Of a DNA stretch of 64,000 nt, positions 546 through 44,430 are shown one piece after another. The position numbers and the translations under genes were made by a program. Origin of the DNA: Anaerobacillus sp. CMMVII (GTDB lineage: Bacteria > Bacillota > Bacilli > Bacillales > Anaerobacillaceae); NCBI RefSeq assembly GCF_025377685.1, contig NZ_JACEHK010000003.1, positions 62,001 through 126,000 on the forward strand, written 5' to 3'. The notes under the pieces are model-generated. The model was not told the DNA's origin and did no database searches. It saw only the letters and a list, made by a program, of their open reading frames with translations. How positions within the stretch are numbered: position 1 is the first letter of the stretch; the number at the start of each line of letters is the position of its first letter.

Positions 546-600
546 AGGAAGCGTGGGGACGGTTCTGCTGCTTCCTACGGAATCACCAGAACCGTCCGTC
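546..600. repeat. Family A palindrome, paired arms
   Basis: Forward arm GGAAGCGTGGGGACGGTTCT plus GCTGCTTCC, then a partial inverted arm ending AGAACCGTCC. The segment 544-597 is base-for-base identical to 1441-1494 on the other side of the next gene. Confidence 0.9.
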
Positions 601-722
601 ACAACCAGTTATTAGTTCAAATATGATTAGTCTCATTGGCAGTAGGAACTGCCGATATATGGAAGCTATACCTAATTTACCAAAAATAAAGTAATTTGTC
701 CCCACAAATCGTTGGAGGAATG

Positions 723-731
723 CATATTATA
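723..731 (+). promoter_or_regulatory. Possible sigma-K/sigma-E type -10 element
   Basis: CATATTATA fits the CATANNNTA pattern of mother-cell sporulation promoters. An AC dinucleotide lies about 17 bases upstream (in CCACAAA). The motif is short and AT-rich, so chance is quite possible. It is reported because the downstream gene looks like a spore surface protein. Confidence 0.3.
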
Positions 732-763
732 TTATATCCGAATCTATGAAAGGATTTGATTAT

Positions 764-1444
764 ATGGGATGTAATTGCTGTGGAGGTTGCGATAAGAAAA
801 ATTGTAACAAGAAGTTAGATCGTTTAATCGACAAGTTGCAAAAAGCACGCCAAGATGCTCGTTGCGGAAATTTAAAGCAAGTGGAGTGTCGTTTAGCTGA
901 ATCAATACGTTATATCAAAGAGGTTTTGCATTGTAGTAACAAACCGGTATTTCCACCTACACTGCTACCTGCTTGCGATCCGACAGGTGCGATTCCACTT
1001 ACGTCTGGATTAAACGGAGCCCCCTCAGGTACCTCAAATCTACTGCCAGGGAATAAGTACGTTTCTCCTTTCGGATTGGTCATGACTTGGACAGGTGATA
1101 CCATCACGGTGTGTGAAGTGCCTGGTAATGAGGCTAATGTATGGTCGATATCAGGTCCACCACTAATTATTACAAGTGGAATTGGAACGCAACAAAGAGT
1201 TCCGTCTTTAAATGGAAATCCACAAGCGGCAGCTGTAGGAATTAATGAGGGTTCGATACTTGTTTTTAGTGCTTCTGAAGTAAATGGCCCGATAACCAAT
1301 GCTAGATATGTTTCTAGTCCCGCCTCTCAAACGAGTGCAAGTTACCAAGGGTTTAATACAAGTGCAACAGAGTTTTACTTAAGCTCTAATGGTCGAACAA
1401 TCCTTGATTCTGGCTACACCCTAAGTGAAATGTTAGGAGTCTAG
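764..1444 (+). CDS. Cys-rich N-terminus protein, possible spore surface protein
   Basis: 226 residues. ATG at 764 is preferred over the in-frame ATG at 746 because GAAAGGA lies just upstream of it. The N-terminus is MGCNCCGGCDKKNC, followed by a Lys/Arg-rich helical region (about residues 15-60) and a Pro/Gly/Ser/Thr-rich beta-type C-terminal region with no charged clusters. That composition resembles spore coat or exosporium proteins, and the possible sporulation promoter at 723 agrees, but I do not recognise a named family. The TAG stop (1442-1444) directly joins a family A palindrome. An identical 54-bp copy of that palindrome lies on the upstream side, so the gene is bracketed by direct copies. 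Confidence 0.7.
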   Translation: MGCNCCGGCDKKNCNKKLDRLIDKLQKARQDARCGNLKQVECRLAESIRYIKEVLHCSNKPVFPPTLLPACDPTGAIPLTSGLNGAPSGTSNLLPGNKYVSPFGLVMTWTGDTITVCEVPGNEANVWSISGPPLIITSGIGTQQRVPSLNGNPQAAAVGINEGSILVFSASEVNGPITNARYVSSPASQTSASYQGFNTSATEFYLSSNGRTILDSGYTLSEMLGV

Positions 1445-1496
1445 GAAGCGTGGGGACGGTTCTGCTGCTTCCTACGGAATCACCAGAACCGTCCCT
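1443..1496. repeat. Family A palindrome joined to a stop codon
   Basis: Starts within the TAG stop of the preceding gene. Identical over 54 bp (1441-1494) to the copy at 544-597, in the same orientation. Confidence 0.9.
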
Positions 1497-1557
1497 TTTC
1501 TTATTAAAAATTCTATGCTTTATTAGAAAAGGCAATTCTATAACCTTATTAAAAAGC

Positions 1558-2452
1558 TTATTCTGGATAAGATAATCTTTCTGCTTCATCGTGTAAATTT
1601 AAAGAACGTAATTGCTCTTTGAGGTACAGCTTAACTTCTTCATTATCAAATAGTAAACCCTTAGATTGAGCATCTCGCAAGAATACTAATTTTGATTCTA
1701 ACGTTGAGTTTTCAAAAAGAGTTTTACATTATTGATTGTTAAATTTTCCTCTTTTTCAAAATCAAAAATAGGAGGGTGCTTCACTTCGAGGTTTATATTT
1801 TGATTAACAACTCCGATACCGTCCTCTGTTGTTACAACAATCTCGTTCTCTCGTTCCTGTTTCACTTTCTGCAAATATTCATATAAAGAGTCTATTGGTT
1901 CGAGCTGAAATTTTTGAGTGAACATTTCACGGACTTTTGCTTGTCTTTCATTATTAAAATCAGTAGTTTCTTTAAATTCACTTTTATTTGTAGATATATC
2001 AAAAATATCAAGAGCGTTTGGAGAAAAGGACATGATTCTCAAAAAATCGTGAAAATTTCTTGCGACAATTTTTACAGGGGCGTCAAAGTCCATTGGAGAG
2101 ACACGTACAATATAAGCATTGCTTAAGTCGCTTACTTTTCCGAAATCAGTGAGAAAGCCATAATGGATACCATCTGACCCAGGTCTAGCAATGATATTAC
2201 ATCAAGTGGTGTATTTAAATAACGTGAATCTAGACCATCGTATGAAAAATAATAACCTAATAAATCTCCATGTTCTAATAAACCGTCTTTGTCTAACTGT
2301 TTTTGCAATTCAATGACATGTTCCAGTTTTTCGGGAAAATGGTATTTTCCATAATTCATCCTTATCATTTTATACTGCTCCTTTTGACAACTAGTTAAAA
2401 CTATTAATAGTAGTATTACGAGTGGCACAATAATGCGGATTTTCACAAACAT
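1558..2452 (-). pseudogene. SUKH/SMI1-KNR4-like lipoprotein gene with two frameshifts
   Basis: Three consecutive minus-strand frames read as one protein. Segment 1 starts at ATG 2452, after GGAAGCG. It has a lipoprotein signal (hydrophobic run, then LTSC) and reaches LNTPLDVI. After a frame change near 2198-2203 the next frame continues IARPGSDGIHYGFLTDFG and onward to NNVK. After a second change in a T5 run near 1716-1720 it continues LFENSTLESKLVFLRDAQ and ends LSYPE at TAA 1558. The PGSDGIHYGF region resembles the SMI1/KNR4 (SUKH) fold, which is common in immunity proteins against polymorphic toxins. Reconstructed length is about 297 residues. Either a decayed gene or a gene with two indel errors. 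Confidence 0.7.
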
Positions 2453-2522
2453 CGCTTCCATTTCAATTACATAATAAATTAACAATAATTAGAATTTATA
2501 CCAAAGTCAACTGAAGGACCGC

Positions 2523-2582
2523 AGGAAGCACGGGGACGGTTCTGTTGCTTCCTGCGGAAGCGCCAGAACCGTCCCCATGCTT
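2523..2582. repeat. Family A palindrome, full inverted pair
   Basis: Forward arm (variable dinucleotide GT) and inverted arm separated by four bases, folding into a near-complete hairpin. It lies about 70 bp upstream of the SUKH-like lipoprotein start. Confidence 0.9.
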
Positions 2583-2760
2583 ATTAATATGCAAATGAAA
2601 AAAGGTACCTCATTCATTTATGAGATAGTTTTTTTATAGTACTTATTCCCGTGGATTAAATTATTATATCCATTGTGATTCGTCACTGTAACTACTCGAG
2701 ATTTGTCGAAGAATGTAGGTTAAATAATGTAATAGAATGATAGTTATGAGAACTAGTGTT

Positions 2761-3298: not shown

Positions 3299-3330
3299 AC
3301 CGCTTTAACGGACTGGGGGTCAGACCCCAC
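3299..3330. repeat. Family B palindrome, single end
   Basis: TACCGCTTTAACGG, then CTGGGGGTCAGACCCCAC. Same GCTTTAA plus GGGGTCAGACCCC layout as the family B copies after 47 kb; one of only two family B loci in the first 44 kb. Confidence 0.8.
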
Positions 3331-5237: not shown

Positions 5238-5609
5238 ATGGAACTAGGAGCATTTTCTGTAAGTTTAAGTGTAAAAGACATCCATAGATCAAAAGCATTT
5301 TACGAGGAATTGGGGTTTAAAACTTTAGGCGGGGACATTAATCAAAATTGGCTTATCATGAAGAATGAACATACAGTGATTGGTCTTTTCCAAGGAATGT
5401 TTGAGAAAAACCTCCTGACATTTAATCCAGGATGGAATCAAAATGCTGAAAATCTAGAAGATTTTACAGATATTCGAGAACTACAAAAAGAGTTGAAGGA
5501 AAAGGGTGTTAAATTAATACAAGAAGCTGATGAAGCAACAGAAGGGCCTGCATTTATTACAATAGAAGATCCAGATGGCAACCAAATTTTAATCGATCAA
5601 CATCGTTAG
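5238..5609 (+). CDS. VOC (glyoxalase/bleomycin resistance) family protein
   Basis: 123 residues. ATG 5238 is chosen because GAGGAGG lies eight bases upstream; an in-frame GTG at 5211 lacks a ribosome site. The SVSLSVKDIHRSKAFYEELGF opening (split here as SVSLSVKDIHRSK / AFYEELGF) and the ITIEDPDGNQILIDQ ending are the two halves of a VOC domain, the metal-binding fold used by glyoxalase I, dioxygenases and antibiotic-binding proteins. The substrate cannot be told from sequence. The stop TAG (5607-5609) overlaps the start of a family A palindrome. Confidence 0.85.
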   Translation: MELGAFSVSLSVKDIHRSKAFYEELGFKTLGGDINQNWLIMKNEHTVIGLFQGMFEKNLLTFNPGWNQNAENLEDFTDIRELQKELKEKGVKLIQEADEATEGPAFITIEDPDGNQILIDQHR

Positions 5610-5673
5610 AAAGCGCGGGGACGGTTCTGCTGCTTCCTGATAAGGAAGCACGAGAACCGTCCCCACGCTTCCT
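5609..5673. repeat. Family A palindrome joined to a stop codon
   Basis: Begins on the last base of the VOC gene stop. Forward arm has dinucleotide GC, inverted arm CG, so the two arms are not exact mirror copies. Confidence 0.9.
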
Positions 5674-5693: not shown

Positions 5694-6944
5694 GTGAATA
5701 CAGTAAATAATAATCTCGAGGAGAAATGGTTAAGGAACATAACTCTCTTCCTTACTAGCCAGACGATTTCACTTTTTGGATCGTCTCTCGTTCAGTATGC
5801 CATTATGTGGTATGTAACGCTAACGACAGGATCAGGTTTAATGATGACGCTGTACATCATTTGCGGTTTTATACCAACCTTTATTTTATCGCCAATTGCA
5901 GGTGTTTGGGCAGATCGCTACAATCGAAAAATGCTGATTATTTTCGCAGATGGACTTATCGCTGTAGCGACACTAATCCTTGCGATTCTCTTTTTACTTG
6001 GCTTTGATTCGATTTGGCTGCTTTTTGTAATGGCGGCGATTCGTGCCTTTGGGACAGGGATTCAAACGCCTGCTGTAGGTGCTATTCTACCGCAAATTGT
6101 ACCAAAGGATAAACTGACAAAGATAAATGGAATTAATGGTAGTATTCAAGCTGTGATTATGTTCCTATCACCAATGGTTAGTGCCGCGCTTTTGGCTTTG
6201 ACTTCGCTTGAAATCATTTTCTTTATTGATGTCATTACGGCAGCAATCGCCATTATTACGCTATTTGGCTTTTTAAAAATTGCTGTGCATGAGAAGGCAT
6301 CGGAAAAACAAACAACAAGCTACTTTAGTGACTTTAAACAAGGGTTGCATTACGTGAATAATAATGCTTTTTTAAAGAAATTTTTCTTATTCTTTGCAGT
6401 CTTTTTTGTATTAATGGCACCAGCAGCGTTTTTGACACCGTTACAAGTGGCACGAAGCTTTGGTGAAGACGTGTGGAGACTGACGGCAATTGAGATTGCG
6501 TTCTCCATTGGGATGATGGTAGGGGGAGGTGTGATCGCTTCCTGGGGTGGCTTTCAAAATAAAGTTAAAACGATGGGATTTGCCAGTGTCATTATGGGAG
6601 CCTGTACGTTTGCGCTCGGTATTGTTCCGCACTTTTCGGTTTATCTAGTTTTCATGGCTTTATTCGGACTTGCGATGCCAATTTTTAATACACCAGCGAC
6701 CGTTTTATTACAGGAGAAAATAGAAGAAGATTATTTAGGTAGAGTATTTGGTGTAATGGGGATGATCTCGACCTCGATGATGCCACTAGGAATGATAATA
6801 TTCGGTCCAATAGCCGACTTTATCAAAATTGAATGGTTGTTAATAGGAACCGGAGTCCTCATTATCATCCTTGCTATTCTTTTAGGCCGAAACCAAGTGT
6901 TACTCGATGCAGGGAAGCGTGGGGACGGTTCTGGTGCTTCCTAA
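5694..6944 (+). CDS. MFS efflux-type transporter with repeat-derived C-terminus
   Basis: 416 residues from GTG 5694; the ribosome site is weak (GGGTAGAAA). About 12 hydrophobic segments, the loop-2/3 motif GVWADRYNRKMLII typical of the major facilitator superfamily, and a charged central loop near residue 200. It resembles DHA3-type drug/macrolide exporters; the substrate is unknown. The last nine codons (GKRGDGSGAS) and the TAA are supplied by a family A element at 6912-6942, so the native C-terminus was replaced or extended by the repeat. It follows the VOC gene on the same strand with an 84-base gap occupied by a palindrome. Confidence 0.88.
   Translation: MNTVNNNLEEKWLRNITLFLTSQTISLFGSSLVQYAIMWYVTLTTGSGLMMTLYIICGFIPTFILSPIAGVWADRYNRKMLIIFADGLIAVATLILAILFLLGFDSIWLLFVMAAIRAFGTGIQTPAVGAILPQIVPKDKLTKINGINGSIQAVIMFLSPMVSAALLALTSLEIIFFIDVITAAIAIITLFGFLKIAVHEKASEKQTTSYFSDFKQGLHYVNNNAFLKKFFLFFAVFFVLMAPAAFLTPLQVARSFGEDVWRLTAIEIAFSIGMMVGGGVIASWGGFQNKVKTMGFASVIMGACTFALGIVPHFSVYLVFMALFGLAMPIFNTPATVLLQEKIEEDYLGRVFGVMGMISTSMMPLGMIIFGPIADFIKIEWLLIGTGVLIIILAILLGRNQVLLDAGKRGDGSGAS
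6912..6942. repeat. Family A element inside the MFS coding end
   Basis: Single forward arm (dinucleotide GG), read in frame as GKRGDGSGAS followed by the stop TAA. Confidence 0.9.
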
Positions 6945-7394: not shown

Positions 7395-8408
7395 ATGTCG
7401 ATACTTGTAACGGGAGGTACGGGGTACATTGGTAGTCATACGTGTGTTGAACTTCTTCACTCGGGGTATGACGTGATTATTATAGATAGTTTAGTGAATA
7501 GCAAAGCAGAAGTAGTAGAACGGATCAACGAAATTACAGGGAAGGATGTTACTTTTTATCAGGTGGATCTTGTAAATTCTCAGGAACTTGAAAAAGTTTT
7601 TATAAAACATAAGATTGACGCTGTGATTCATTTCGCCGGATTAAAAGCTGTAGGTGAGTCTGTAGAAATGCCGCTTCGCTATTATCAAAATAATATAACT
7701 GGAACATTGGTTCTTTGTGAATTGATGCAAAAGTATAACGTGAAAAAACTCGTATTTAGTTCTTCGGCAACTGTTTACGGAATGCCTGAGCGCGTACCAA
7801 TTTCTGAAGATTTTCCACTACATGCAACAAACCCGTACGGGCAGACAAAGCTAATGATTGAGCAAATTCTCCGTGACCTTTACGTATCAGATCCGAATTG
7901 GAGTATTGCTCTTTTACGGTATTTTAATCCTATTGGAGCACACAAAAGTGGCCGTATTGGTGAAGAGCCGGCTGGAATTCCAAACAATCTTATGCCATAT
8001 ATAACTCAGGTAGCGGTTGGTAAGCTCGCTGAATTAAAAGTATTTGGTAACAATTATCCTACGGTTGATGGAACCGGAGTCAGAGACTATATTCATGTAG
8101 TTGACCTTGCGAAGGGCCATATAAAGGCGTTAGAAAAAGTCAGTTCTGCTGCAGGGGTGGAGGCGTACAACCTTGGAACAGGAAAGGGTTATAGCGTACT
8201 ACAAATTGTTAAAGCATTTGAAAAAGCCTCACAAAGAAAAATTCCCTATAAAATTGTAGACAAACGTCCCGGAGATGTTGCCATTTGTTACGCAGACCCA
8301 TCAAAAGCAAAAGTAGAGCTAAATTGGGAGGCAACAAAAAGTCTAGAGGAAATGTGTGAAGATTCTTGGAGATGGCAAAAGCACGGGGACGGTTCTGCCG
8401 CTTCCTAA
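7395..8408 (+). CDS. galE: UDP-glucose 4-epimerase
   Basis: 337 residues. Interconverts UDP-glucose and UDP-galactose (or the GlcNAc pair) and supplies the neighbouring glycosyltransferases. NAD-binding GGTGYIGSH at residues 6-14, catalytic Ser in SSSATVYG and the YGQTK Tyr-Lys pair near residue 150, and the [16 protein letters not shown] substrate loop. Start ATG 7395 has AAGGAG eight bases upstream (an in-frame GTG at 7389 is too close). The protein ends WRWQ followed by KHGDGSAAS: GalE proteins normally end soon after WRWQ with an Asn/Pro/Gly tail, and here a family A element supplies the last codons and stop. The active site is unaffected. Confidence 0.96.
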
Positions 8409-8444
8409 GGAAGCAGCAGAACCGTCCCCATGCCCCATGCTTCC
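8377..8444. repeat. Family A palindrome inside the galE coding end
   Basis: The forward arm is read in frame as KHGDGSAAS plus TAA; the inverted arm follows immediately, with a duplicated CCCCATG near its end. Confidence 0.9.
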
Positions 8445-12289: not shown

Positions 12290-12320
12290 AGGAAGCGTGG
12301 GGACGGTTCTGGCGCTTCCT
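12290..12320. repeat. Family A element after sacT
   Basis: Single forward arm with GGCGCTTCC end, eight bases after the sacT stop and just before the sacP promoter. Confidence 0.9.
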
Positions 12321-13943: not shown

Positions 13944-15410
13944 ATGTCTACTAAAGATCGTGAATTAAGAGAAAGAGCCTATGAATCCGTTGAGAAGTAT
14001 AAAGAAACGGTCAACAAGGACCCTTATCGACTTCACTATCACATAATGCCCCCTGTCGGTTTGTTAAATGATCCGAACGGGTTTATTCACTGGAACGGGA
14101 GATACCACCTTTTTTATCAGTGGATGCCTTTTAAAACTGGTCATGGCGCAAAGTTTTGGGGACATGTTTCCACCGAGGACTTCATCAATTGGAGAGAAGA
14201 GGAGATTGCTCTAACTCCTTCTGAGTGGTACGAAAAAAATGGTTGCTATTCCGGAAGTGCCATCGAGCATGACGGAAAAATGTATATTTTTTACACAGGA
14301 AACGTCAAAGACGAAAATGGAAATCGCGAAACCTATCAATGCCTCGGGATTTCTGAAGATGGTGTTAACGTAGAGAAGAAGGGACCAGTTGTCGAGCTGC
14401 CCGAGGGCTACACGCCACATTTTCGTGACCCAAAAGTTTGGAAGCAGGATGATCAATTCTATATGGTAGTTGGCGCGCAAACTCTCGATAAAAAAGGGGC
14501 TGTCGCTCTTTTTTCATCGGACAATTTAACAGCCTGGAGCTACGAGGGAGATTTAGCCGGAGGAGGGAAAGGACCTTTAAAGGACTTTGGCTATATGTTT
14601 GAGTGCCCTGATTTGTTTTCTCTAGGTGAAAAAGATATGTTGATTATCTCTCCTCAGGGGCTTAAGCCCGACGGTATGAAATACAGAAATGTTTATCAGT
14701 CAGGGTATGTGGTTGGTTATTTTGATCCAAAGGGTAAGTCGTATGATCATGGTGAATTTGAGGAGTTGGATCGAGGATTTGATTTTTATGCACCACAAAC
14801 AACCGAGGACTCCAAGGGACGAAGACTTATGTTTGCCTGGATGAGTGTCCCGGATCAAAACGAACAGGATCACCCGACGGTTGAATACCAGTGGCTTCAT
14901 AATATGACCCTGCCTAGGGAATTAAAAATGGTGGGCGATAAGCTGTACCAATTGCCGGTGGAGGAGTTGGAAGGACTTCGTATTGGGGAAGCTTTGTCCC
15001 ATCGTGTTACCTTAAGGAATGAAGTGCGGGAACTAGAAGGGGTAAACGGTAGAGCGGTGGAATTACGTGTAAATGACATTTCTCTGGTTGAAGGGTGGTT
15101 TGAAATTGCCATTCATGATGCAGCTAGGATCGTCTATTCAAACGGCGTATTCACTTTAGAAAGAAAAAGCTATGTAGATGGTACAGTTGAAAACCGCCAA
15201 TGTATTCTTGAGAAGCTGGATTCATTAACCATCTACATTGATACGTCATCGGTCGAAGTTTTTGTTAACGGCGGCGAAGAAGTTTTCACAGCAAGATACT
15301 ACCCAGCAGCCTCCCAGCGATCGATTACATTCGGCGCATCAAAAGAGTGCTCGTTTAGTGTTGAGAAGTGGGATTTGGGGAAGCGTGGGGACGGTTCTGC
15401 TGCTTCCTAA
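13944..15410 (+). CDS. sacA: Sucrose-6-phosphate hydrolase, repeat-derived C-terminus
   Basis: 488 residues, GH32. Cleaves sucrose-6-phosphate to glucose-6-phosphate and fructose in the cytoplasm. Catalytic nucleophile Asp in LLNDPNGF (about residue 46), stabiliser in FRDPKVW, acid/base Glu in FECPD, and a C-terminal beta-sandwich domain ending in the ITFGASKECSFSVEKW strand. ATG 13944 has GGAGGGG upstream; an earlier in-frame start at 13929 is not needed. The final LGKRGDGSAAS and TAA come from a family A element (15379-15409), placed after the last beta-strand, so the fold should be intact. Confidence 0.95.
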   Translation: MSTKDRELRERAYESVEKYKETVNKDPYRLHYHIMPPVGLLNDPNGFIHWNGRYHLFYQWMPFKTGHGAKFWGHVSTEDFINWREEEIALTPSEWYEKNGCYSGSAIEHDGKMYIFYTGNVKDENGNRETYQCLGISEDGVNVEKKGPVVELPEGYTPHFRDPKVWKQDDQFYMVVGAQTLDKKGAVALFSSDNLTAWSYEGDLAGGGKGPLKDFGYMFECPDLFSLGEKDMLIISPQGLKPDGMKYRNVYQSGYVVGYFDPKGKSYDHGEFEELDRGFDFYAPQTTEDSKGRRLMFAWMSVPDQNEQDHPTVEYQWLHNMTLPRELKMVGDKLYQLPVEELEGLRIGEALSHRVTLRNEVRELEGVNGRAVELRVNDISLVEGWFEIAIHDAARIVYSNGVFTLERKSYVDGTVENRQCILEKLDSLTIYIDTSSVEVFVNGGEEVFTARYYPAASQRSITFGASKECSFSVEKWDLGKRGDGSAAS

Positions 15411-15691
15411 CTGGTGAGTGGGGGGAAGCGCGGGGACGGTTCTACTGCTTCCTAATCCAATGTGGGATTGAAATTCCTAAACAGTGGTGAATAGTAAGAG
15501 ATGGTTAATTTTGGAGAAAGTTACTATAAAAATTCTTGATAAATGAAGCAGCCCTGATGAGAGGAGAACTCTCATCAGGGCTGTTTTTGTGTTTTGGGAC
15601 AATTAATTAAAGGATGGAGGAAGCCGCCGCGCACTGATGCTTCTTCTTCGTTTGATCGAGGAAGCACGAGAACCGTCCCCATGCTTCTTCC
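15379..15691. repeat. Composite repeat copy 1 (family A ends around a terminator)
   Basis: Two tandem forward family A arms (15379-15409 and 15423-15453), then CCAATGTGGG... and a strong hairpin: AGCAGCCCTGATGAGAG with CTCTCATCAGGGCTG, then TTTTTGTGTTTT. An inverted family A arm at 15659-15691 closes it. Three more copies of this layout lie at 17.4, 19.1 and 20.6 kb. The hairpin should end the sacPA transcript. No coding capacity seen. Confidence 0.85.
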
Positions 15692-17440: not shown

Positions 17441-17612
17441 AGCGTGGGGAAGCGTGGGGACGGTTCTGCTGCTTCCTAACCCAATGTGGGGTGAAACCCC
17501 TTAGAGTGATGAATAGAGAGAGTGGGTTAAATTTGGTGACTGTCACCACCCAAAGATTGATAAATGAAGCAGCCCTGATGAGAGGAGAACTCTCATCAGG
17601 GCTACTTTTGTT
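17439..17612. repeat. Composite repeat copy 2, right end lost
   Basis: A family A arm (with a duplicated GAAGCGTGGG) starts on the upstream stop codon. The block from CTAACCCAATGTGGGGTG to the hairpin AGCAGCCCTGATGAGAG/CTCTCATCAGGGCT is virtually identical to copy 3 at 19.1 kb over more than 120 bp. The right inverted arm is absent. The hairpin ends in TTTTGTTTGTTT and should terminate the glycosyltransferase transcript. Confidence 0.85.
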
Positions 17613-19082: not shown

Positions 19083-19103
19083 GAAAAAAAGGACAACCCG
19101 TTT

Positions 19104-19363
19104 GAAGCGTGGGGACGGTTCTGCTGCTTCCTAACCCAATGTGGGGTGAAACCCCTTAGAGTGATGAATAGAGAGAGTGGGTTAAATTTGGTGACTGTCA
19201 CCACCCAAAGATTGATAAATGAAGCAGTCCTGATGAGAGGAGAACTCTCATCAGGGCTGTTTTTGTGTTTTGTGACAATAATTAAAGAATGGAAGAAGAC
19301 GCCACGCACCCATGCTTTATCTTCATTTGGTGGAGGAAGCGCGAGAACCGTCCCCACGCTTCT
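19104..19363. repeat. Composite repeat copy 3, intact, about 260 bp
   Basis: Best-preserved copy: forward family A arm 19104-19132, body CTAACCCAATGTGGGGTGAA ... ACTGTCACCACCC, terminator hairpin (19223-19267), a GACAATAATTAAAG... segment, then an inverted family A arm 19333-19363. Ends in inverted orientation and no coding capacity: the structure of a non-autonomous mobile element. Confidence 0.88.
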
Positions 19364-20607: not shown

Positions 20608-20878
20608 GAAGCACGGGTGAAGCGTGGGGACGGTTCTCCTGCTTCCTAATCCAATGTGGGGCTGAATCCCCTTAAGAGTGGCGAATAGTTAGGGTTAATT
20701 TTGGTGACCGTCACCATCAAAATTCTTGATAAATGAAGCAGCCCTGATGAGAGTGGAACTCTCATCAGGGCTGTTTTTGTGTTTTGTGACAACTAATGAA
20801 ATGATGAAGGTAGCCGCCACGCCCATGCTTCGTCTTCGTAAGATGCAGGAAGCGCGAGAACCGTCCCCACGCTTCCTT
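20608..20878. repeat. Composite repeat copy 4
   Basis: Forward family A arm with a duplicated end (GAAGCACGGGTGAAGCGTGG), body diverged from copies 2/3, hairpin AGCAGCCCTGATGAGAG/CTCTCATCAGGGCTG followed by TTTTTGTGTTTT, and inverted family A arm 20847-20878 that abuts the stop of the minus-strand transpeptidase gene. The hairpin can serve the plus-strand yjcZ-like gene. Confidence 0.87.
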
Positions 20879-23521: not shown

Positions 23522-23594
23522 AGCGCGGGGACGGTTCTGGTGCTTCCTAACAGCAGGAAGCATTAGAACCGTCCCCACGCTTCCCGCGCTTCCC
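23520..23594. repeat. Family A palindrome between convergent genes
   Basis: Starts on the TGA of sirC and ends next to the stop of the minus-strand SDR gene; each gene sees a forward arm first. An extra CCCGCGCTTCC end duplication is present. Confidence 0.9.
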
Positions 23595-33484: not shown

Positions 33485-33524
33485 GAAGCGTGGGGGAAGC
33501 GTGGGGACGGTTCTCGTGCTTCCT
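33483..33524. repeat. Family A element joined to the cysI stop
   Basis: TAGGAAGCGTGGGGGAAGCG: a duplicated left end, then the core and CGTGCTTCC. It is the only structured element directly after the sulfate operon. Confidence 0.9.
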
Positions 33525-35257: not shown

Positions 35258-35267
35258 GGAGAAAAGC

Positions 35268-37622
35268 ATGTTTAACAAGAAAGATAAAAAAATTGCGTAT
35301 CTATTCATTGCTACTTTCATTGTTTTAAATCTTTCTTGGAATTATCTATTTCAAAATAATCTGGTCATCCTAGACTGGGGTGTGGCAGTATTGCAACTTG
35401 TTGCCTGCCTCACCGCCTTTGGTTGGCTTATGGTTACTTATAAAAATGATCAAGGAAGAACAAGAAGGTTTTGGCTTTTCTTAGGGTTAGGAATTTTAAG
35501 TTATTTATTAGGAATCCTTGTTTGGGCTTTTTACCATTTTACGTTGAATGTTGGAGCTGAAGAAGCCCTTTTACCAAAGGTGTTTTGGATATTTCAAAAT
35601 ATCTTTTATTTTGTTGCCCTTTTGTTGATGATGAACGTCATGAAAAAAAATAACTTGCTAACAATACGTTTCTTGTTTGATATATTAATCGTGATGTCTG
35701 TTGCAACAACATTTATTTGGTTTTTTATTATGAACCCACTAATAAATAACACGGAGCATTCCTTTTTAGTTATTGAATTACTTTATCCAATCTTAGATTT
35801 AGGAGTTTTAGTTGGTGTTCTTAGTCTTATGATTGCTTCTAAGGCCATTTTTACTAAAATCACTTCCTATCTACTTGTGGCAGGATTTTTAGTGCAAATT
35901 ATGGCTGATTTGATTTTTTCATACTTAACAGTCAAAAACATTTATACAGTTGGTAGTTTATCTGAACCATTATGGATCTTATCTGTATTTTTACTGGGAC
36001 TAGCAGGACTTTATCACGAAAATCAATCTGAAGATGAGTATTCCACAGTTGCTGATCTAAAGCCTAAAAAAAATAACTTCTTAAAGCATAGCTTCCCATA
36101 TCTAGGCGTTATTTTCCTTTCCATTTATGCTATTTCGGAAATTCAGGATAGTACGTCGATTGTTTTAGGTTTATTTTTAAGTATATTACTTGTGATCTTA
36201 AGACAGGTTTTTACACTTCTAGATAATGATAGATTGGTAACTGATTTAAATAACTTGAATGAAGCATTAGAAATAAAAGTAAAAGAGCGAACAGATCGGT
36301 TAGTAGAAACGGTGAACAAAATGGAACACTTGGCTTTTCATGATGTCGTGACAGGCCTTCCTAATAGGCGGTATATTGAAAAAAGATTGTCCCGTGCGAT
36401 AATAAACTCAAACTCTTCTAGTCGAAAAAAAATCGCCTTCTTATTACTTGATTTAGACAGATTTAAACAAATTAATGATAGTCTTGGGCATTCATTCGGA
36501 GACTTATTATTAAAAGAAGTTGGTAGGAGACTAAACCTTGTCATGCGGCCAAATGAATTGGTATGCCGAATTGGCGGTGATGAGTTTGCCATCATACTAG
36601 AAAACGTCAATATGGCAAGAATCGAGAAAAGGGCACACGTAATCCTAGAGACACTGCGAGAAGTATATGATATTTCTGGTGCGGAAATTCATGTTACTCC
36701 TAGTATAGGAGTTGCTATTTATCCAGAGCATGGAGAAGACTTCGAAGCACTTCTCATGAAGGCAGATACTGCGATGTATAAGGTGAAAGAAAATGGCAAA
36801 AATCACTTTAAACTATATAACGAAACCATGGACATCGAGCCTCAGATGGCTCTAGAAAATTCTTTAAGAAAAGGGCTTGAACGAGAAGAGTTTGTGTTAT
36901 ATTACCAACCTCAGATATTGTTAGAGACCGGTGAATTAGTCGGGGTAGAGGCACTACTCCGTTGGATATCACCAAGCCAAGGATTTGTTTCACCTGCAGA
37001 ATTTATCCCACTAGCAGAAGAAACAGGACTTATCCTCCCAATAGGTGAATGGGTCCTGCGCGAAGCCTGTAAACAATCCGTCGAATGGGAAAAACAAGGG
37101 TTCCCACCACTAAGAGTAGCTGTAAATATCTCTACACTGCAATTTCAGCAGTGTAATTTCGTTGACACAGTAGCAAAAATTCTTTCTGAGACAGAAGCTA
37201 ATCCCGATAATATAGAATTAGAGATCACAGAAAGTATGGCAATGGGATCCACAGAGGATGCAATTACTAAGTTAACACAACTAAAAAATATGGGGTTCCA
37301 CATCGCAATCGATGATTTTGGAACAGGTTATTCATCATTACAATACTTGAGTCAATTTCCAATCGACCGTTTAAAGATTGACCGCTCATTTATCTCCTTA
37401 TTGAACACAAGCGAAAAAAATGACGGAATCGTTAAACTAATCGTAATGATGGCAAAAGGGTTGAACTTCAAAGTAATCGCTGAAGGTGTTGAAACCGAAA
37501 CACAAAAGTCCTTCCTTCAACAAATAAACTGCGACGAAATCCAAGGATTCCTGATCAGCCCCCCTCTCCCCCCAGAGGAAGCAAGGAAGCGTGGGGACGG
37601 TTCTGGTGCTTCCTTAGGTTAA
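35268..37622 (+). CDS. Membrane GGDEF-EAL cyclic di-GMP protein
   Basis: 784 residues. About eight N-terminal membrane segments (residues 10-310, a MASE-like sensor), a short coiled coil, GGDEF domain (about 355-510) with intact RIGGDEFAII, and EAL domain (about 530-770) with intact VEALLRW, DDFGTGYSSLQYL and IAEGVETETQ. Both synthesis and breakdown sites look functional by motif; no I-site was checked. ATG 35268 follows AAGGAG. The EAL domain ends at GFLISPPLPPEEA, after which a family A element supplies RKRGDGSGASLG and the stop, replacing the usual C-terminal tail. Confidence 0.93.
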   Translation: MFNKKDKKIAYLFIATFIVLNLSWNYLFQNNLVILDWGVAVLQLVACLTAFGWLMVTYKNDQGRTRRFWLFLGLGILSYLLGILVWAFYHFTLNVGAEEALLPKVFWIFQNIFYFVALLLMMNVMKKNNLLTIRFLFDILIVMSVATTFIWFFIMNPLINNTEHSFLVIELLYPILDLGVLVGVLSLMIASKAIFTKITSYLLVAGFLVQIMADLIFSYLTVKNIYTVGSLSEPLWILSVFLLGLAGLYHENQSEDEYSTVADLKPKKNNFLKHSFPYLGVIFLSIYAISEIQDSTSIVLGLFLSILLVILRQVFTLLDNDRLVTDLNNLNEALEIKVKERTDRLVETVNKMEHLAFHDVVTGLPNRRYIEKRLSRAIINSNSSSRKKIAFLLLDLDRFKQINDSLGHSFGDLLLKEVGRRLNLVMRPNELVCRIGGDEFAIILENVNMARIEKRAHVILETLREVYDISGAEIHVTPSIGVAIYPEHGEDFEALLMKADTAMYKVKENGKNHFKLYNETMDIEPQMALENSLRKGLEREEFVLYYQPQILLETGELVGVEALLRWISPSQGFVSPAEFIPLAEETGLILPIGEWVLREACKQSVEWEKQGFPPLRVAVNISTLQFQQCNFVDTVAKILSETEANPDNIELEITESMAMGSTEDAITKLTQLKNMGFHIAIDDFGTGYSSLQYLSQFPIDRLKIDRSFISLLNTSEKNDGIVKLIVMMAKGLNFKVIAEGVETETQKSFLQQINCDEIQGFLISPPLPPEEARKRGDGSGASLG

Positions 37623-37690
37623 TCGGGGCGAGCTTAGTAGGAAGCGTGGGGACGGTTCTGGTGCTTCCTTAGATTAATTGGGGCGAGCTC
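37584..37690. repeat. Tandem duplication containing two family A elements
   Basis: Two consecutive ~53-bp units: family A arm, then TTAGRTTAATYGGGGCGAGC. The first unit encodes the C-terminus of the GGDEF-EAL protein. The same GGCGAGCT flank occurs at 33.72 kb beside a decayed family A arm (33675-33706). Confidence 0.85.
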
Positions 37691-37712
37691 CAATCAAGCT
37701 TAAAACGAAAGA

Positions 37713-37748
37713 AAGAGCCCTGTAGAGATAAGCTCTACAGGGTTCTTT
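37713..37748. terminator. Terminator hairpin, second copy
   Basis: AAGAGCCCTGTAGAG pairs with CTCTACAGGGTTCTT. Homologous to 33751-33790; serves the GGDEF-EAL transcript and, from the other side, the zinc-protein gene. Confidence 0.8.
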
Positions 37749-37786
37749 CGCATCTTATTTATATTGTTTGCATTTGTTAATATGTA

Positions 37787-37951
37787 TTAGAATTTTTCAA
37801 CGTAAACACAATGTTCACAAGCTCTACCAAGGTTTTCTTTTGTAATAGGATCTCTAAAGTATGTTTCAAAATCGCCGCAGACACTACATTCTACTTCATG
37901 AATTATTTCCCTCTGGCCAAGTAATTTATCTAATAATAGTTCAAAGTTCAT
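37787..37951 (-). CDS. Small zinc-binding protein
   Basis: 54 residues: MNFELLLDKLLGQREIIHEV, then ECSVCGDFETYFRD and GRACEHCVYVEKF. Two CxxC knuckles 20-odd residues apart suggest one zinc ribbon. AAGGTGGAGA precedes the ATG. A family is not recognised. A decayed duplicate lies at 33819-33970, which confirms that this frame was once selected. Convergent with the GGDEF-EAL gene. Confidence 0.75.
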   Translation of the reverse strand: MNFELLLDKLLGQREIIHEVECSVCGDFETYFRDPITKENLGRACEHCVYVEKF

Positions 37952-38019
37952 TCCATCTCCACCTTAATAGATAGTTACTTAATTTATATACAAGTAGTGG
38001 GGAGAATATAACCTGTATA

Positions 38020-38105
38020 AAGCATGGGTAAAAGCATGGGGACGGTTCTGCTGCTTCATAGACCAGAGGAAGCAGCAGAACCGTCCCCACGCTCCCCCAC
38101 GCTCC
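38020..38105. repeat. Family A palindrome with both ends duplicated
   Basis: AAAGCATGGGTAAAAGCATG on the left and CCCCACGCTCCCCCACGCTC on the right. Both arms share dinucleotide GC. One of two close copies upstream and downstream of the RAYT gene. Confidence 0.9.
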
Positions 38106-38475
38106 GAAAAAAATGGTGAAATTTGTTATAAAATTGTATATGATAAATGTAAAGATTCAGCCCCCTATTACTAAACTTAAGACAGTATTCCTCATTTAGG
38201 TTTCCTTCAACTGAAGTCCATCACATTCTTGTTTTATTCCCTAGCTGTTCAAATCCCAATTTACCGAAATCCCACGCTTTACCGATTCCATTTGCAAGTT
38301 TGAGAGCGTTATACCTCTGTAATGAATTCTGTAATCAGATCCCCATCGAAAACACTAACCTATTGCTGAAACACAAAAAGTTAATACTGCTATTACTAAT
38401 TAAAGACAAGAAAGAAGGAGGCTACTAGGTTAAAAGAATCAAAGAACGTATGTCCATAGAAAAGGGGTGGTCAAT
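38106..38475. other. Intergenic region upstream of the RAYT gene
   Basis: No convincing ORF, hairpin or promoter seen. Only the AAAGGGGTGG ribosome site at its right end is clear. It probably carries the RAYT promoter. Confidence 0.4.
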
Positions 38476-39252
38476 ATGCCTCGTCAAGCGAGGGTGAAAA
38501 GTCACAGCAAAATATACCACATTATCTTGAGGGGAGCGAATAGACAAGAAATTTTTCATGATGAGGAAGATTGTATGAGGTTTCTTGATATTCTTGGTAA
38601 AAATAAACGAAAGGCAGGAATGGATGTTTATGCTTGGTGCTTAATGAATAACCATGTCCATCTTCTTTTAAAAGAAGGTGATGAGTCTATTTCTATTACT
38701 ATGAAACGGATCGGTGTTAGTTATGTTAGGTACTATAACTGGAAGTATGGTACAACAGGACATCTTTTTCAGGATCGCTTCAAAAGTGAGAATGTAGAAA
38801 CGGTTAGGTACTTACTAGTCGTTGTGAGATATATTCATCAAAATCCAGTAAAGGCAGGCATCGCCAAACGTGTTGACGAATGGAAGTGGAGTAGTTGTCG
38901 TTCCTATTATGGTCAACCGATCTCATCAGTAAAGTATTTACTTGATGGAGATTATATACTTAGCTTGCTTTCAGCCAATAAAGAAGCTGCTACAGAAAGA
39001 TTTAAGGGGCTAAATGAAAGAAGAAACAATGATCAATGCTTAGATGAACCTGGAAAAACAAGATTAACAGATGTTGAGGCACGCCAACTAATGAAAGAGT
39101 TGTTAGGTACCTTGGAAATAGCAAAAGTTAAGAGTTTGTCTCGGCTGGAAAGAGATGGAATTCTTCGGAAAGTAAAACAGATTAATGGTATTTCACAACG
39201 CCAAATTGCAAGAATTCTAGGCATTTCGCCAAATTTAGTTTTTAAAGCATGA
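38476..39252 (+). CDS. REP-associated tyrosine transposase (RAYT, Y1 family)
   Basis: 258 residues. MPRQARVKSHSKIYHIILRG opens an IS200/IS605-like Y1 HUH nuclease domain. The metal-binding pair is in LMNNHVHLLLK (HVH), and the nucleophile Tyr is in VVRYIHQNPVKAGI. GHLFQDRFKSE is also typical of RAYTs. The C-terminal helix-turn-helix (SQRQIARILGISPNLVFKA) is the DNA-recognition part of this group. RAYTs mobilise REP palindromes rather than their own flanks, and this gene lacks IS ends. ATG 38476 follows GGGGTGG. Its TGA stop is the first base of a family A element (GCATGAAGCGTGGGGACGG), tying the enzyme to the family A repeats. Confidence 0.93.
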   Translation: MPRQARVKSHSKIYHIILRGANRQEIFHDEEDCMRFLDILGKNKRKAGMDVYAWCLMNNHVHLLLKEGDESISITMKRIGVSYVRYYNWKYGTTGHLFQDRFKSENVETVRYLLVVVRYIHQNPVKAGIAKRVDEWKWSSCRSYYGQPISSVKYLLDGDYILSLLSANKEAATERFKGLNERRNNDQCLDEPGKTRLTDVEARQLMKELLGTLEIAKVKSLSRLERDGILRKVKQINGISQRQIARILGISPNLVFKA

Positions 39253-39280
39253 AGCGTGGGGACGGTTCTCACGCTTCCTT
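39251..39280. repeat. Family A element joined to the RAYT stop
   Basis: Begins inside the TGA of the RAYT gene; dinucleotide CA and CGCTTCC end. Confidence 0.92.
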
Positions 39281-39340
39281 AACAGCAAAAAGAAAAAATC
39301 AAGCTACAGGGTTTCCTTTTGCTATTGAGAAGTACATTGG

Positions 39341-39384
39341 AAGAATTAATCAAACGTTTGATTAATTCTTCCTTTTTGTTTTTT
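39341..39384. repeat. Family C palindrome, 30-bp perfect, with T-rich tail
   Basis: AAGAATTAATCAAAC and its exact mirror GTTTGATTAATTCTT without a loop, followed by CCTTTTTGTTTTTT. Lies between the convergent RAYT and esterase genes, so it might act as a terminator as well as a repeat. Confidence 0.7.
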
Positions 39385-39459
39385 GAAGCATGGGGACGGT
39401 TCTCGTGCTTCATTATTTAGGGCTACGAGGAAGCACCAGAACCGTCCCCGCGCTTCCTA
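39385..39459. repeat. Family A pair next to the esterase stop
   Basis: Forward arm 39385-39411 (CG) and inverted arm 39428-39459 (CC), which runs into the TAG stop of the minus-strand esterase. Confidence 0.9.
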
Positions 39460-41620: not shown

Positions 41621-43129
41621 ATGATGTTCAATCCAACAGAAGTTCTTCAAGCCAAAAATTTAACTAATTTTAAGGCTTCTGAAGTTATCGCTGTAATCGA
41701 TTACCTGATAAACGAATTAAGAGAAACAAAGAAGGAATCTTTGCCTGGTAAAATACTAGAGTTAATTACATATCTAAAAAGAAAGTTTGTTGGTAAACAA
41801 ATTTATCCGATTGCTGAAATACTTGAAAGTGATTACTGGTTTGCAAAACACCTCATTCATTCAAAAAAAACTTCCGAGTGGAACAGCAAAATGAGACAAC
41901 AGCAATTGTTTATCCTCGAAAATCTTTTCACTGAATATGAAGAGAAAACAATACCACCATTAATATGGAATAATATCTGCATTACATATTCTGAGGCCCT
42001 AATGAATATTGGTAGACCGATTGAAGCATTAGCGGTTATAGAGAAAATGATTGAAAATGAAGATTTTTATTACGAAAAAAAGGTCCCTCAAACAGGTTGG
42101 GGATTATTATTCTACTCCACCCTATTAAAAGGAACCCAAGATAAAATGCATTGTATCTATAATGCCCATCAAAAATTAAAGACGTACAAAGAAAACATCA
42201 AGGACAAAGATAATTTGATGGTTTATCAACAGCGCTTTAAGGTGGCAGAAGATATGTATGAACAATTAGGGATAGACGACGTCGGCGTTCATAAAGGTGG
42301 AAACCGCTTTTCAGGAAAAGAGAAGGTCTATCGAAAATGGTGCGCTGCTAACCGTTTATTTTTAAATGGATCGAATGACATTGACCTACATTCGATGGTT
42401 CAAGTTGATGCCTTCTTATATAGTGACAATAACTTTCCTAATGAAACGCATTCTTTCCGTTCAAGAGTGTATCAAAACTTTTTAAATTCGTTAAGTCAAG
42501 AATTTATCACACTACGATGGCTTCTGTTTGATACGATTCATCAATCAAAAGAAAAACCCCATTTGGCGGACAATGACTTGTTATTCAATAACGAGGGGAT
42601 GAACGTATATAGCATTCGTACTGATCTATTAAAAACTGTCTATCGGATGTCTTATTCGATTTTTGATAAGATCGGCTATTTTCTTAACCATTTCTATAAC
42701 CTTAGCATCCCTAACAATAAAGCTAGTCTTAATCACATTTGGTTTATTGATGAAGACCCAAATAAGCCACTAAAGAAGTTTTTTAAACAGAAAAAAAATG
42801 ATGCATTACAATCTTTATATTGGCTTTCTAGAGATATCTACGGGTATGACAAAATCTCTGAACAGAGCATGTTTGTAAAAAAAATAAGTCACTTACGAAA
42901 TATGATGGAGCATAGCTACCTCCAAGTAACCGAGTACCCAGACTCCTTACTTAATCATGAAAGTGGAATTAAACTAAACCTAGATTCTATTAAATTTGGA
43001 GTAGGAGAATTCCATTCTCACAACCTATCATTAAACGAATTAGAAAAATTAACAATGGACTTAACTAAAAAGACACGTAATGCCTTATTATACCTTAAAT
43101 TTGCAGTTGATCACGAAGCGGGAGAGTAG
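41621..43129 (+). CDS. LA2681-like HEPN-domain protein
   Basis: 502 residues. The N-terminal ~210 residues are helical repeats of TPR character (NNICITYSEALMNIGRPIEA, then AVIEKMIENEDFYYEK). The C-terminal half (about 280-500) carries KKISHLRNMMEHSYLQ, an R-x4-H motif as in HEPN ribonucleases, and KKTRNALLYLKFAVDHE. The layout matches LA2681-type HEPN proteins, proposed RNases in stress or phage defence. GGAGGGAG lies seven bases before ATG 41621. No antitoxin or other defence gene adjoins it, so it would act alone or its partner is elsewhere. Function inferred from motif only. The TAG stop joins a family A palindrome. Confidence 0.7.
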   Translation: MMFNPTEVLQAKNLTNFKASEVIAVIDYLINELRETKKESLPGKILELITYLKRKFVGKQIYPIAEILESDYWFAKHLIHSKKTSEWNSKMRQQQLFILENLFTEYEEKTIPPLIWNNICITYSEALMNIGRPIEALAVIEKMIENEDFYYEKKVPQTGWGLLFYSTLLKGTQDKMHCIYNAHQKLKTYKENIKDKDNLMVYQQRFKVAEDMYEQLGIDDVGVHKGGNRFSGKEKVYRKWCAANRLFLNGSNDIDLHSMVQVDAFLYSDNNFPNETHSFRSRVYQNFLNSLSQEFITLRWLLFDTIHQSKEKPHLADNDLLFNNEGMNVYSIRTDLLKTVYRMSYSIFDKIGYFLNHFYNLSIPNNKASLNHIWFIDEDPNKPLKKFFKQKKNDALQSLYWLSRDIYGYDKISEQSMFVKKISHLRNMMEHSYLQVTEYPDSLLNHESGIKLNLDSIKFGVGEFHSHNLSLNELEKLTMDLTKKTRNALLYLKFAVDHEAGE

Positions 43130-43206
43130 GAAGCGTGGGGACGGTTCTCGTGCTTCCTCAGATAAATGAAGCAGCAGAACCGTCCCCATGCTTCGCGACG
43201 CTTCCT
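43128..43206. repeat. Family A pair joined to the HEPN gene stop
   Basis: Forward arm (CG) starting at the stop, inverted arm (GC) plus an extra GCGACGCTTCC end. Confidence 0.9.
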
Positions 43207-43211
43207 TTTTT

Positions 43212-43238
43212 TGAAACCTTTCTCCAATTGGTTTCGTA
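43212..43238 (+). promoter_or_regulatory. Sigma-W-like promoter of pspA
   Basis: TGAAAC, 17 bases, CGTA, matching the ECF sigma-W pattern of the B. subtilis pspA operon. It is about 180 bp from the pspA start; a family A palindrome occupies most of the leader between them. Confidence 0.75.
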
Positions 43239-43321
43239 AAAGTAGTACTACACAATGAAAAAAAACATCTAGGCGTACTCAATAATAATGAAGATTACAT
43301 ACAATAATAAGGTGGTAATCA

Positions 43322-43400
43322 GAAAGCGCCGGGACGGTTCTGCTGCTTTCTTCGTGAATCAAATGCTTTAGGAAGCAGCAGAACCGTCCCCACGCTTCCT
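43322..43400. repeat. Family A pair inside the pspA leader
   Basis: Forward arm with GCCGGGACGG and matching inverted arm, ending six bases before the GGGAGG ribosome site of pspA. Within the transcript it would form a large hairpin just ahead of the start codon. Confidence 0.9.
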
Positions 43401-43417
43401 GGAAAGGGAGGATGGAC

Positions 43418-44089
43418 ATGAGTATGATAAAGAGGTTTAGAAGTATTATGGCGGCTAACTTTTATGCCATGCTAGAAAAAGCGGAAGATCCTGAAAAGAT
43501 GCTTGCTCAATATTTACGAGACCTACGTAGTGATTTAGGTAACGTGAAGGCTGAAACGGCTTCGGTTATGGCAGAGGAACAACGGACAAAACGAGCGCTG
43601 GATGAAAATTCAGCTGAGATCAATAAGCTGCAACGGTATGCAGAAAGAGCGCTAGAGCTAGGAAATGAAACGGATGCCAGAGCGTTATTAGAGAGAAAAG
43701 CAGCGGTAGCATTGCGAGAAGAAGGACTTAAAGATGCTTATGAAGTAGTCTGTGAAAATGCAAAAAAAATGCGTGACATGCATGATAAGTTGAATTCCGA
43801 TATAAAAGAATTAGAAGCCCGTAGTCACGAAATTAAACGAAAGCTTACTGCGGCGAAAACGCAAGAAAAAATAAACAGAATGACCGGTGGCTCTACAAGA
43901 ATGGCTGACCTTGATAGATTGGAAGAGAAGGCCGATCGAGCGCTATATACAGCAAATGCGATGGCAGAGCTGAATGCACCTAAGGATGACATTGATGATT
44001 TAATGGCGAAGTATACTGATACAGACAATGCTAAACCAAGCATTGACGATGAGCTAGAGGCCTTAAAGAATAACTTAAAAAAGAAATAA
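43418..44089 (+). CDS. pspA: Phage shock protein A / IM30 family
   Basis: 223 residues, almost fully coiled coil. SMIKRFRSIMAANFYAMLEK is the membrane-binding amphipathic helix; EKMLAQYLRDLRSDLGNVK and ARALLERKAAVALREE are family blocks. Assembles into membrane-repairing ESCRT-III-like polymers under envelope stress. ATG 43418 is six bases after GGGAGG; neighbouring in-frame ATGs at 43412 and 43424 fit less well. Orthologue of B. subtilis PspA (YdjF) by gene order: ydjG, ydjH, ydjI follow, though a 360-bp repeat-filled gap separates pspA from ydjG. Confidence 0.95.
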   Translation: MSMIKRFRSIMAANFYAMLEKAEDPEKMLAQYLRDLRSDLGNVKAETASVMAEEQRTKRALDENSAEINKLQRYAERALELGNETDARALLERKAAVALREEGLKDAYEVVCENAKKMRDMHDKLNSDIKELEARSHEIKRKLTAAKTQEKINRMTGGSTRMADLDRLEEKADRALYTANAMAELNAPKDDIDDLMAKYTDTDNAKPSIDDELEALKNNLKKK

Positions 44090-44182
44090 GCTAGAACGTC
44101 TATTCTAGCTGTTGACTTGCAGAAGCAAGGACGGTTCGCATGCTTTTTTGCAAGAGATAAGTAGAAGCGTTTTAGAAGTTAT

Positions 44183-44390
44183 GTCTAGCTTCAGGCGCCC
44201 AGCCCCTCGAGGTCGAATGTTCCTGTTCACTAAGCCGCTGCCTCTGTGGTCCAGTAGGTCCTCGAGGCAAAGCTGCATGTAGTAACTCTAGAAGTAACAC
44301 ATGTTGTGAACGAGGTCAGTAACTTTTGTCGGGGCTAAGCAAAGAAAAAGCACTACACTTTTTCCTAGGGCGTTTACGCTTTTTTATTTC
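44183..44390. repeat. About 200-bp Bacillaceae-type intergenic repeat
   Basis: GTCTAGCTTCAGGCGCCCAG, then CCCCTCGAGGTCG ... GTCCTCGAGGC ... TTGTCGGGGCTAAGC and GGGCGTTTACGCTTTTTT. The CTCGAGG/GTCGGGGCT/GCG.TTACGCTTTT pattern resembles a GC-richer interspersed repeat I recall from many Bacillaceae genomes. No ORF. A decayed family A element (44120-44149) lies just before it. Splits pspA from ydjG. Confidence 0.6.
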
Positions 44391-44400
44391 GTAAGGCGAA

Positions 44401-44430
44401 GGAAGCAGCAGAACCGTCCCCACGCTTCCT
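44401..44430. repeat. Family A element, last copy in the window
   Basis: Inverted arm GGAAGCAGCAGAACCGTCCC then CACGCTTCC, directly before the ydjG ribosome site. No family A copy is seen after this point. Confidence 0.9.

Follow-up and report, generated by a model that had tools for sequence, protein, structure and literature searches.

Among the described relatives of the RAYTs (tyrosine transposases associated with repetitive extragenic palindromes, REPs), the TIRYT proteins are characterized by flanking terminal inverted repeats (TIRs; Di Nocera et al., 2013, PMC3733652), and TIRYT/TIRtron has been equated with subclass 2.1 of the TnpA-Y1 proteins, near which no REP-like sequences are reported in the sections of the survey drawn upon here (Quentin et al., 2018, PMC6006769). 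In the parts of these accounts considered here, the TIR families are called moderately abundant and a GGGGWSAS motif is described for the majority, not all, of the TIRs (PMC3733652); many GTAG REPs lie at most 20 bp from the 3' ends of open reading frames (ORFs) and their termini often provide a TAG stop (PMC2817692; PMC3733652); and REP accumulation close to rayt has been described for four species (Nunvar et al., 2010, PMC2817692). In the present work, we have analyzed a stretch of 64,000 nucleotides (nt) from Anaerobacillus sp. CMMVII (contig NZ_JACEHK010000003.1, positions 62,001 to 126,000; hereafter the window), which carries the gene for a RAYT/TIRYT-type HUH Y1 transposase and many copies of a 29-bp repeat, frequently at the ends of genes. 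On balance, these repeats are best explained as the TIRs of a TIRYT-kind HUH/Y1 transposase together with many short non-autonomous elements mobilized by it, which have come to lie at gene ends partly through "stop capture", where an element that lands in the last codons of a gene ends it.

The window contains 46 copies of the core GGGGACGG, where shuffled sequences led us to expect 0.57, and 51 half-elements of the consensus GGAAGCRYGGGGACGGTTCTNNTGCTTCC (at most 5 mismatches) are found between positions 547 and 44429, in agreement with the original prediction, made from these letters alone, of about 40 copies in 44 kb. The halves occur as singles, as close inverted doublets, which take up 30 of the 51, and as longer composites. 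The repeats do lie at gene ends: at least 15 genes had been said to have an element near their stop codon, and a sense half is present from -38 to +20 nt of the stop in 16 of the 34 genes that start before 45 kb, as called by a home-made codon-usage caller and not by annotation; one of these 16 genes has an extra antisense half at +9, which is the far side of a doublet. The sites at 1442, 5607, 17438, 20880, 23519, 33482, 39250, 39457, and 43127 match the earlier description, which also gave a TAA stop at 22749, where no called gene ends, and the cys operon is free of repeats as described (no halves between 24482 and 33495). At 17438 and 33482, a partial left-end copy (AGCGTGG / GAAGCGTGGG) adjoins the stop and is followed by a full half that begins 7 and 10 nt, respectively, past the stop; the full half at 20880 begins 3 nt past the stop. 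Such partial left-end copies (GAAGCGTGGG and alike) stand directly ahead of full halves at 17438-17448, 33485-33495, and 20608-20618 and look like slippage or repeated events at one site.

The transposase gene (38467..39252, plus strand) encodes a protein of 261 amino acids (aa) and, as had been noted, terminates on an element (TGAAGCGTGGGGACGG), its TGA stop being the first three bases of a half-element at 39250..39278 (plus strand). The protein matches PF01797, the HUH/Y1 core, with 56.9 bits, and a C-terminal helix-turn-helix (HTH) is indicated by HTH_23 (26.0 bits, residues 232-260, cut-off 24.6); HTH_28 scores below its cut-off and the NCBIfam model REP_Tyr_transpos, with 76.8 bits, slightly below the cut-off of 80. 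The N-H-x-H motif and Y122, which we take to be the catalytic tyrosine, are invariant in 11 relatives. The gene lies inside a region bounded by inward-pointing repeats (37640..39457), yet its nearest downstream half is in sense, and the outer parts of this region (37641-37791 and 39335-39457) are found joined without the gene at another locus (L022:9725-10024). Judged by sequence features, the transposase appears to fit the published TIRYT description, in which the C-terminal extension is HTH_23, HTH_28, or Bac_DnaA_C.

The association of the repeat with this RAYT holds well beyond the window. A relative of the transposase with at least 58% identity is present in 12 of the 61 genomes searched, and the counts of GGGACGGTTCT in these 12 are 160 (own genome), 234, 193, 193, 155, 120, 105, 37, 17, 7, 1, and 0. 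All nine genomes with at least 17 cores fall among these 12, no more than 8 cores being found in any of the other 49. The low counts within the clade belong to G035 (7 cores), G004 (1 core; a member of the same genus as our genome, with its contig C8 identical to NZ_MLQR01000008.1 of Anaerobacillus alkalilacustris), and G038 (0 cores; an internal TAA is reported in its gene). Among the 80 best-matching loci of relatives, out of at least 576, the exact core occurs near the transposase in 27 of the 28 loci with at least 53% identity, in several genera of Bacillota; absence of the repeat from all other genomes with this RAYT had been named as grounds for rejecting the prediction. In some deeper relatives the motif is altered: L121 contains 10 copies of GGGACGTTCT and L123 contains 9 of GGGGACAGGT, the latter being found in some relatives at 43-45% identity.

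The copies also crowd around the transposase gene, their density being approximately 10 to 20 times the genome mean: the 40 kb around the gene hold 35 cores in G059, 33 in G014, 25 in G025, and 25 in G031, and the corresponding 26.5 kb in G037 hold 8. In G002, the full set of 37 copies is confined to two stretches totalling 94 kb, one of which has the transposase gene. (For G000, G002, and G010, the stretches were picked with the copy positions known; for G059, G014, G025, G031, and G037, the choice rested on the transposase alone.) In our own genome, 141 of the 148 exact copies of GGGGACGGTTCT lie in stretches that were fetched because copies were there, chiefly at C3:4.8-106k, which includes part of the window, C4:61-108k, C13, C17:389-410k, and C1:484-488k. 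The spread is uneven, and L012, L013, and L021, three stretches of 20 kb with no listed copies, contain none; they are not random controls, since L012 borders a cluster and L013 and L021 surround other transposase-like genes; L013 is also a plastic region, hence we make no claim of synteny for the clusters. Elements in L014-L016 (C4:55001-111190) have in common a loop, TTCGTTTCGCTAAACGAA, that is absent from the C3 elements listed, which hints at cluster-specific subfamilies. Sequences of 1.4-1.5 kb at L054:13497-14892 and L013:445-2005 recur at several other places in the genome (80-97% and 98-100% alike, respectively) and are probably insertion sequences.

Placement at stop codons recurs in other genomes. 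In the cluster stretches of eight genomes, 123 of 403 halves lie from -5 to +14 nt of a stop codon, where random placement in non-coding DNA predicts 27.4, and the excess is 3.3 to 8.1 times in each genome. In 25 further loci (the 28 with at least 53% identity, less G004, G014, and one partial contig), 74 of 259 halves are so placed against 17.8 expected, with an excess in 23 of the 25. The p-values of this excess are too small, because the copies are partly duplicates and not independent of each other. Among 45 overlapped stops in the eight genomes, TAG at -1 accounts for 13, TGA at -3 for 19, and others for 13, and those of our own genome are spread over -3 (7), -2 (4), and -1 (10). When genes with overlapped ends are compared with element-free relatives, six of nine informative genes have lost 2-22 native C-terminal residues and three have kept the native end within one residue, one more case being ambiguous; among five genes with a half at +7 to +11, four are unchanged and one differs by 3 residues. 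Stops in all three phases together with shortened genes fit stop capture better than a fixed stop-codon target, and part of the coincidence between repeats and stops therefore arises because the element itself gives a new stop to the shortened gene. A fine-scale excess at stop codons is supported in 8/8 genomes and 23/25 loci, but the proposed specificity for 3' ends fails at the coarse scale in our own genome, where the density of halves is equal across the spacer classes (2.22 per kb in convergent, 2.30 in codirectional, and 2.35 in divergent spacers). Over the eight genomes the same densities form a mild gradient (3.68, 2.79, and 2.09, respectively).

The single orientation of the repeats along the sense strand of the gene is likewise correct as an observation, 119 of the halves near stops in the eight genomes being in sense and 4 in antisense, but it does not indicate oriented insertion, since inward-pointing terminal repeats give the same result. 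Halves without a convergent partner (at most 2 mismatches) within 70, 120, or 350 nt have sense to antisense ratios of 53:3, 44:3, and 23:3, and a stricter partner screen, which permits chance partners, leaves 10:3 (p 0.09). The same test in the 25 other loci gives 19:10 (p 0.14), which becomes 18:0 without the transposase's own stop. Outside the transposase gene, the relatives' loci have 56 sense and 2 antisense halves, and at the transposase's own stop the half is antisense in 11 of 17 loci. Oriented insertion was therefore rejected as the principal explanation, as the transposase, lying inside, meets its own repeats in antisense. This split between the transposase's own stop and those of other genes reveals the inward-pointing geometry, and in 13 of 25 relatives' loci the core-like repeats closest to the transposase face inward on either side of it. 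Doublets are "sense" from either side because they are symmetric, and neighboring genes meet halves in sense because the halves are inward-pointing terminal repeats. On the simplest reading, the one orientation is mainly a matter of geometry, the repeats marking the ends of elements and pointing inward; single halves would then be remnants, or ends with a far or worn partner.

The arrangement that we favor would work as follows. The enzyme probably recognizes the core GGGGACGGTTCT in an imperfect hairpin, whose arms would have changed together in each lineage, and mobilizes single halves, close inverted doublets, and composites of 250-270 nt. The copies would spread mostly near the transposase gene, a pattern that is observed while its mechanism is presumed. 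Placement at gene ends then follows two routes: many copies lie directly behind a native stop, and others landed in the last codons and end the gene there, as seen in six of nine informative genes, either because the arm edge gives TAG, TGA, or TAA in any of three phases or because translation passes through the element to a stop just behind. Insertions at gene ends presumably do little harm, bring their own hairpin and sometimes a terminator-like stem, and would appear in sense whichever way they face, every element beginning with an inward-pointing repeat; the copies retained may serve as putative hairpins at the 3' ends of mRNAs. The interpretation given in the original prediction is thus partly supported. 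Several observations weigh against our explanation. Arm pairs within genomes do not covary beyond shuffles, the sole low value being that within halves of G059 (26 of 2000); the clusters C4, C13, and C17 have no close transposase member; many halves lie 0-11 nt behind an intact stop, which is beyond stop capture; phase -3 is dominant in the other genomes (15 of 24 overlaps), as a fixed target could also give, although the arm in those genomes starts with TGA; and a search for new insertions between G059 and G014 found nearly all copies shared and no clean empty site.

The arms of the 29-bp half vary by genome (GGAAGC/GCTTCC, TGAAAC/GTTTCA, TGTTAA/TTTGCA, and GTGTTGGT/ACCAACAC) around a constant core, and left and right arms match each other at consensus level in each genome. 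The repeats are REPs in the wide sense of the term, with a 29-bp half, 148 exact cores, and 347 of 403 halves in spacers or at most 15 nt from them. There are 50 convergent pairs in our own stretches, 46 of them spaced 43-64 nt core to core, and, as RNA, doublets form strong folds (-47 kcal/mol for 86 nt). Four composites lie within 5.5 kb of the window (15.4-20.9 kb) and share an inner part that is 80-98% alike, with a stem CAGCCCTGATGAGAG/CTCTCATCAGGGCTG followed by T's. The first (15424..15688) consists of a terminal repeat, an intrinsic-terminator-like hairpin, and an inverted terminal repeat; the second (17448..17611, plus strand) has a left repeat followed by inner sequence over 135 nt, and a right repeat was not found. 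The remaining two also have the terminator-like hairpin: that at 19103..19363 begins 20 nt past the gene 17787-19082, and that at 20618..20876 starts 14 nt past a 69-aa ORF and reaches, on its right side, to 3 nt from the stop codon of the gene 20880-22319 (minus strand). The left ends are all 6-20 nt behind an ORF, in one case the 69-aa ORF, which the caller had missed. In G002, six near-full composites (90-92% alike) enclose a different inner part, which has a stem and a run of T's of its own; of the 8 left ends tested, 4 fall between -3 and +12 nt relative to the end of an ORF of at least 40 aa. A tentative reading is that the transposase spreads gene-ending cassettes (a repeat with a stop codon, an intrinsic terminator, and an inverted repeat), and that two congeneric species each captured and multiplied a different terminator; unrelated neighboring genes would thereby share a mobile 3' end, some at the cost of their native C-terminus.

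The strongest alternative, which we regard as rather unlikely, is that gene-end hairpins are kept for their function, stabilizing mRNA 3' ends, slowing terminating ribosomes, or ending transcription, with the transposase supplying raw material only. The strong folding of the doublets and the stem and T's of the composites speak for it, as does the report, in the part of that study considered here, that E. coli REPs at most 15 nt from the stop affect translation (PMC12306157). Further evidence comes from a 26-kb stretch shared by G059 and G014, in blocks that are 80-89% alike. With either species as reference, the arms of shared copies are identical at 0.949/0.933 of positions and the core at 0.950/0.963, compared with 0.734/0.729 for variable sites, 0.700/0.747 for the inner spacer, and 0.839/0.842 (about 0.84) for other intergenic DNA, the core value being inflated as copies were found through the core in one species, for which the arms were not used. 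Arms and core thus appear to be constrained in copies common to the two species, but gene conversion or continued recognition by the enzyme would also conserve them, and the equal density in divergent spacers of our own genome is no indication that every copy acts at transcript ends. The repeat differences between these two species are confined to the copy number of tandem arrays, seen at L060+L061 and L066+L067 as arrays of halves or arm fragments.

It is less probable still, and we think it improbable, that insertion is targeted, with, for example, terminating ribosomes or single-stranded DNA at the ends of transcripts guiding the transposase complex to the 3' ends of genes. The excess at -5 to +14 nt (4.5-fold in the eight genomes and 4.2-fold in the 25 further loci) is what such targeting would give, but base frequencies in the 12 nt outside the arm show no clear target motif in the outer flank, the sole signal being an A beside the arm that extends the palindrome, and the spread of phases and the equal coarse density over spacer classes in our own genome, as well as the shortened genes, speak against it. 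That the excess is an artefact, caused by the gene calls, by clustering, or by tandem duplication of entire loci, is scarcely credible, for although the gene calls are home-made and some neighboring copies are non-independent duplicates, such as the composites, the excess is found equally in each of eight genomes with different arms and in 23 of 25 loci in other genera, and element-free relatives confirm the native stops of several genes. Stop-capturing TIRs of a TIRYT-kind transposase remain our preferred explanation.

The remaining sites in the window exemplify both routes of placement. Halves that form the end of a gene include those at 1444..1472 (plus strand), which completes with its G the TAG that ends gene 746-1444 and is followed by a degenerate inverted partner; at 6913..6941 (plus strand), in the last codons of gene 5694-6944, encoding the tail GKRGDGSGAS and a stop; at 15379..15407 (plus strand), which replaces the last native codons of the sucrose-hydrolase-like gene 13929-15410 (tail GKRGDGSAAS); and at 37585..37613 (plus strand), which replaces the last approximately 11 codons of the GGDEF/EAL gene 35244-37622. 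Among the doublets, that at 8377..8437 replaces the C-terminus of the GalE-like gene 7389-8408 (tail KHGDGSAAS), that at 39384..39457 gives the G of the TAG stop of gene 39457-41304 (minus strand), whose product is 2 residues shorter than a relative, and those at 5609..5672 and 43129..43195 lie on the TAG stops of genes 5211-5609 and 41621-43129, respectively. The doublet at 23519..23584 separates two convergent genes: it lies on the TGA of 22859-23521, and the stop of 23596-24360 (minus strand) is 11 nt away. Behind intact ends, a half at 12291..12319 (plus strand) is 8 nt past the native stop of a LicT-like antiterminator gene, and one at 33495..33523 (plus strand) is 10 nt past the stop of the cysI-like gene, with a partial left-end copy on the TAG ahead of it.

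Other repeats and features are also present in the window. A different palindrome, GGGGTCAGACCCC, lies at 3313-3330 behind an M3-peptidase-like gene and may belong to a different repeat family. A different repeat of approximately 120-150 nt lies behind the cysI-like gene (33540-33690) and matches many of our own contigs (e.g., C8, C9, C13, and C17) as well as G003, G005, and G006. The sequences at 33676-33969 and 37641-37936, which follow two unrelated genes, are 83% alike over approximately 300 nt and represent another duplicated 3' region. No Rfam family matched at the repeats; a c-di-GMP-I riboswitch is found at 62794-62879 (minus strand; Rfam RF01051, 79.1 bits), just upstream of the large GGDEF/EAL gene 59505-62720 (minus strand).

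In open-licence full texts we found no description of this Bacillota repeat family, and a search for the letters of the core returned, as judged from titles and the starts of abstracts, no paper on bacterial repeats. What is new is a branch of a known kind of repeat, stop-adjacent REPs and RAYT-proximal clusters having been published for other families. It represents a large and well-replicated Bacillota case of a TIRYT-type repeat family, in proteins that the portions of the literature cited here describe as without REP-like sequences or with moderate families, and it offers natural sets, with a constant core and varied arms clustered around the gene, for testing enzyme recognition and stop-codon placement. 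If the composites move as units, they would be a mobile element that rewrites the end of a host gene's protein as well as that of its transcript.

The comparisons that follow rest on selected sections of the cited papers. Hairpins at most 15 nt from stop codons are shared with the E. coli REPs (PMC12306157), which differ in sequence and whose function was tested in E. coli. Composites with inverted ends and no gene, and the locus that looks like a gene-less transposase region, resemble non-autonomous elements of the MITE (miniature inverted-repeat transposable element) kind, unlike which single 29-bp halves dominate here and the inner part has a terminator-like hairpin. With GTAG REPs, REPINs, and REPtrons, our repeats share short palindromes, inverted doublets (as in the REPIN), and a copy number tied to the cognate transposase, and with GTAG REPs and REPtrons also stop-adjacent copies, TAG stops given by the repeat, and accumulation near rayt; in contrast to these, there is no GTAG (or GTGG) foot 5' of the hairpin in the 12 nt checked outside the arm, and it is the core, placed in the loop region, that is conserved as the arms change. 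The closest likeness in protein and in repeat arrangement is to TIRYT/TIRtron, with its RAYT-like HUH/Y1 protein, C-terminal HTH, flanking inverted repeats with a GGGGWSAS-like motif, and inverted repeats some of which belong to families in single, dimer, or grouped form. Our family departs from it in the core GGGGACGG, whose seventh base is G and not A as in GGGGWSAS; in its size, with 105-234 copies in 7 of 61 genomes where the published accounts give no REP-like sequences near subclass 2.1 or moderately abundant TIR families; and in its placement at stop codons, for which the sections of PMC3733652 and PMC6006769 considered here give no counterpart among TIRs.

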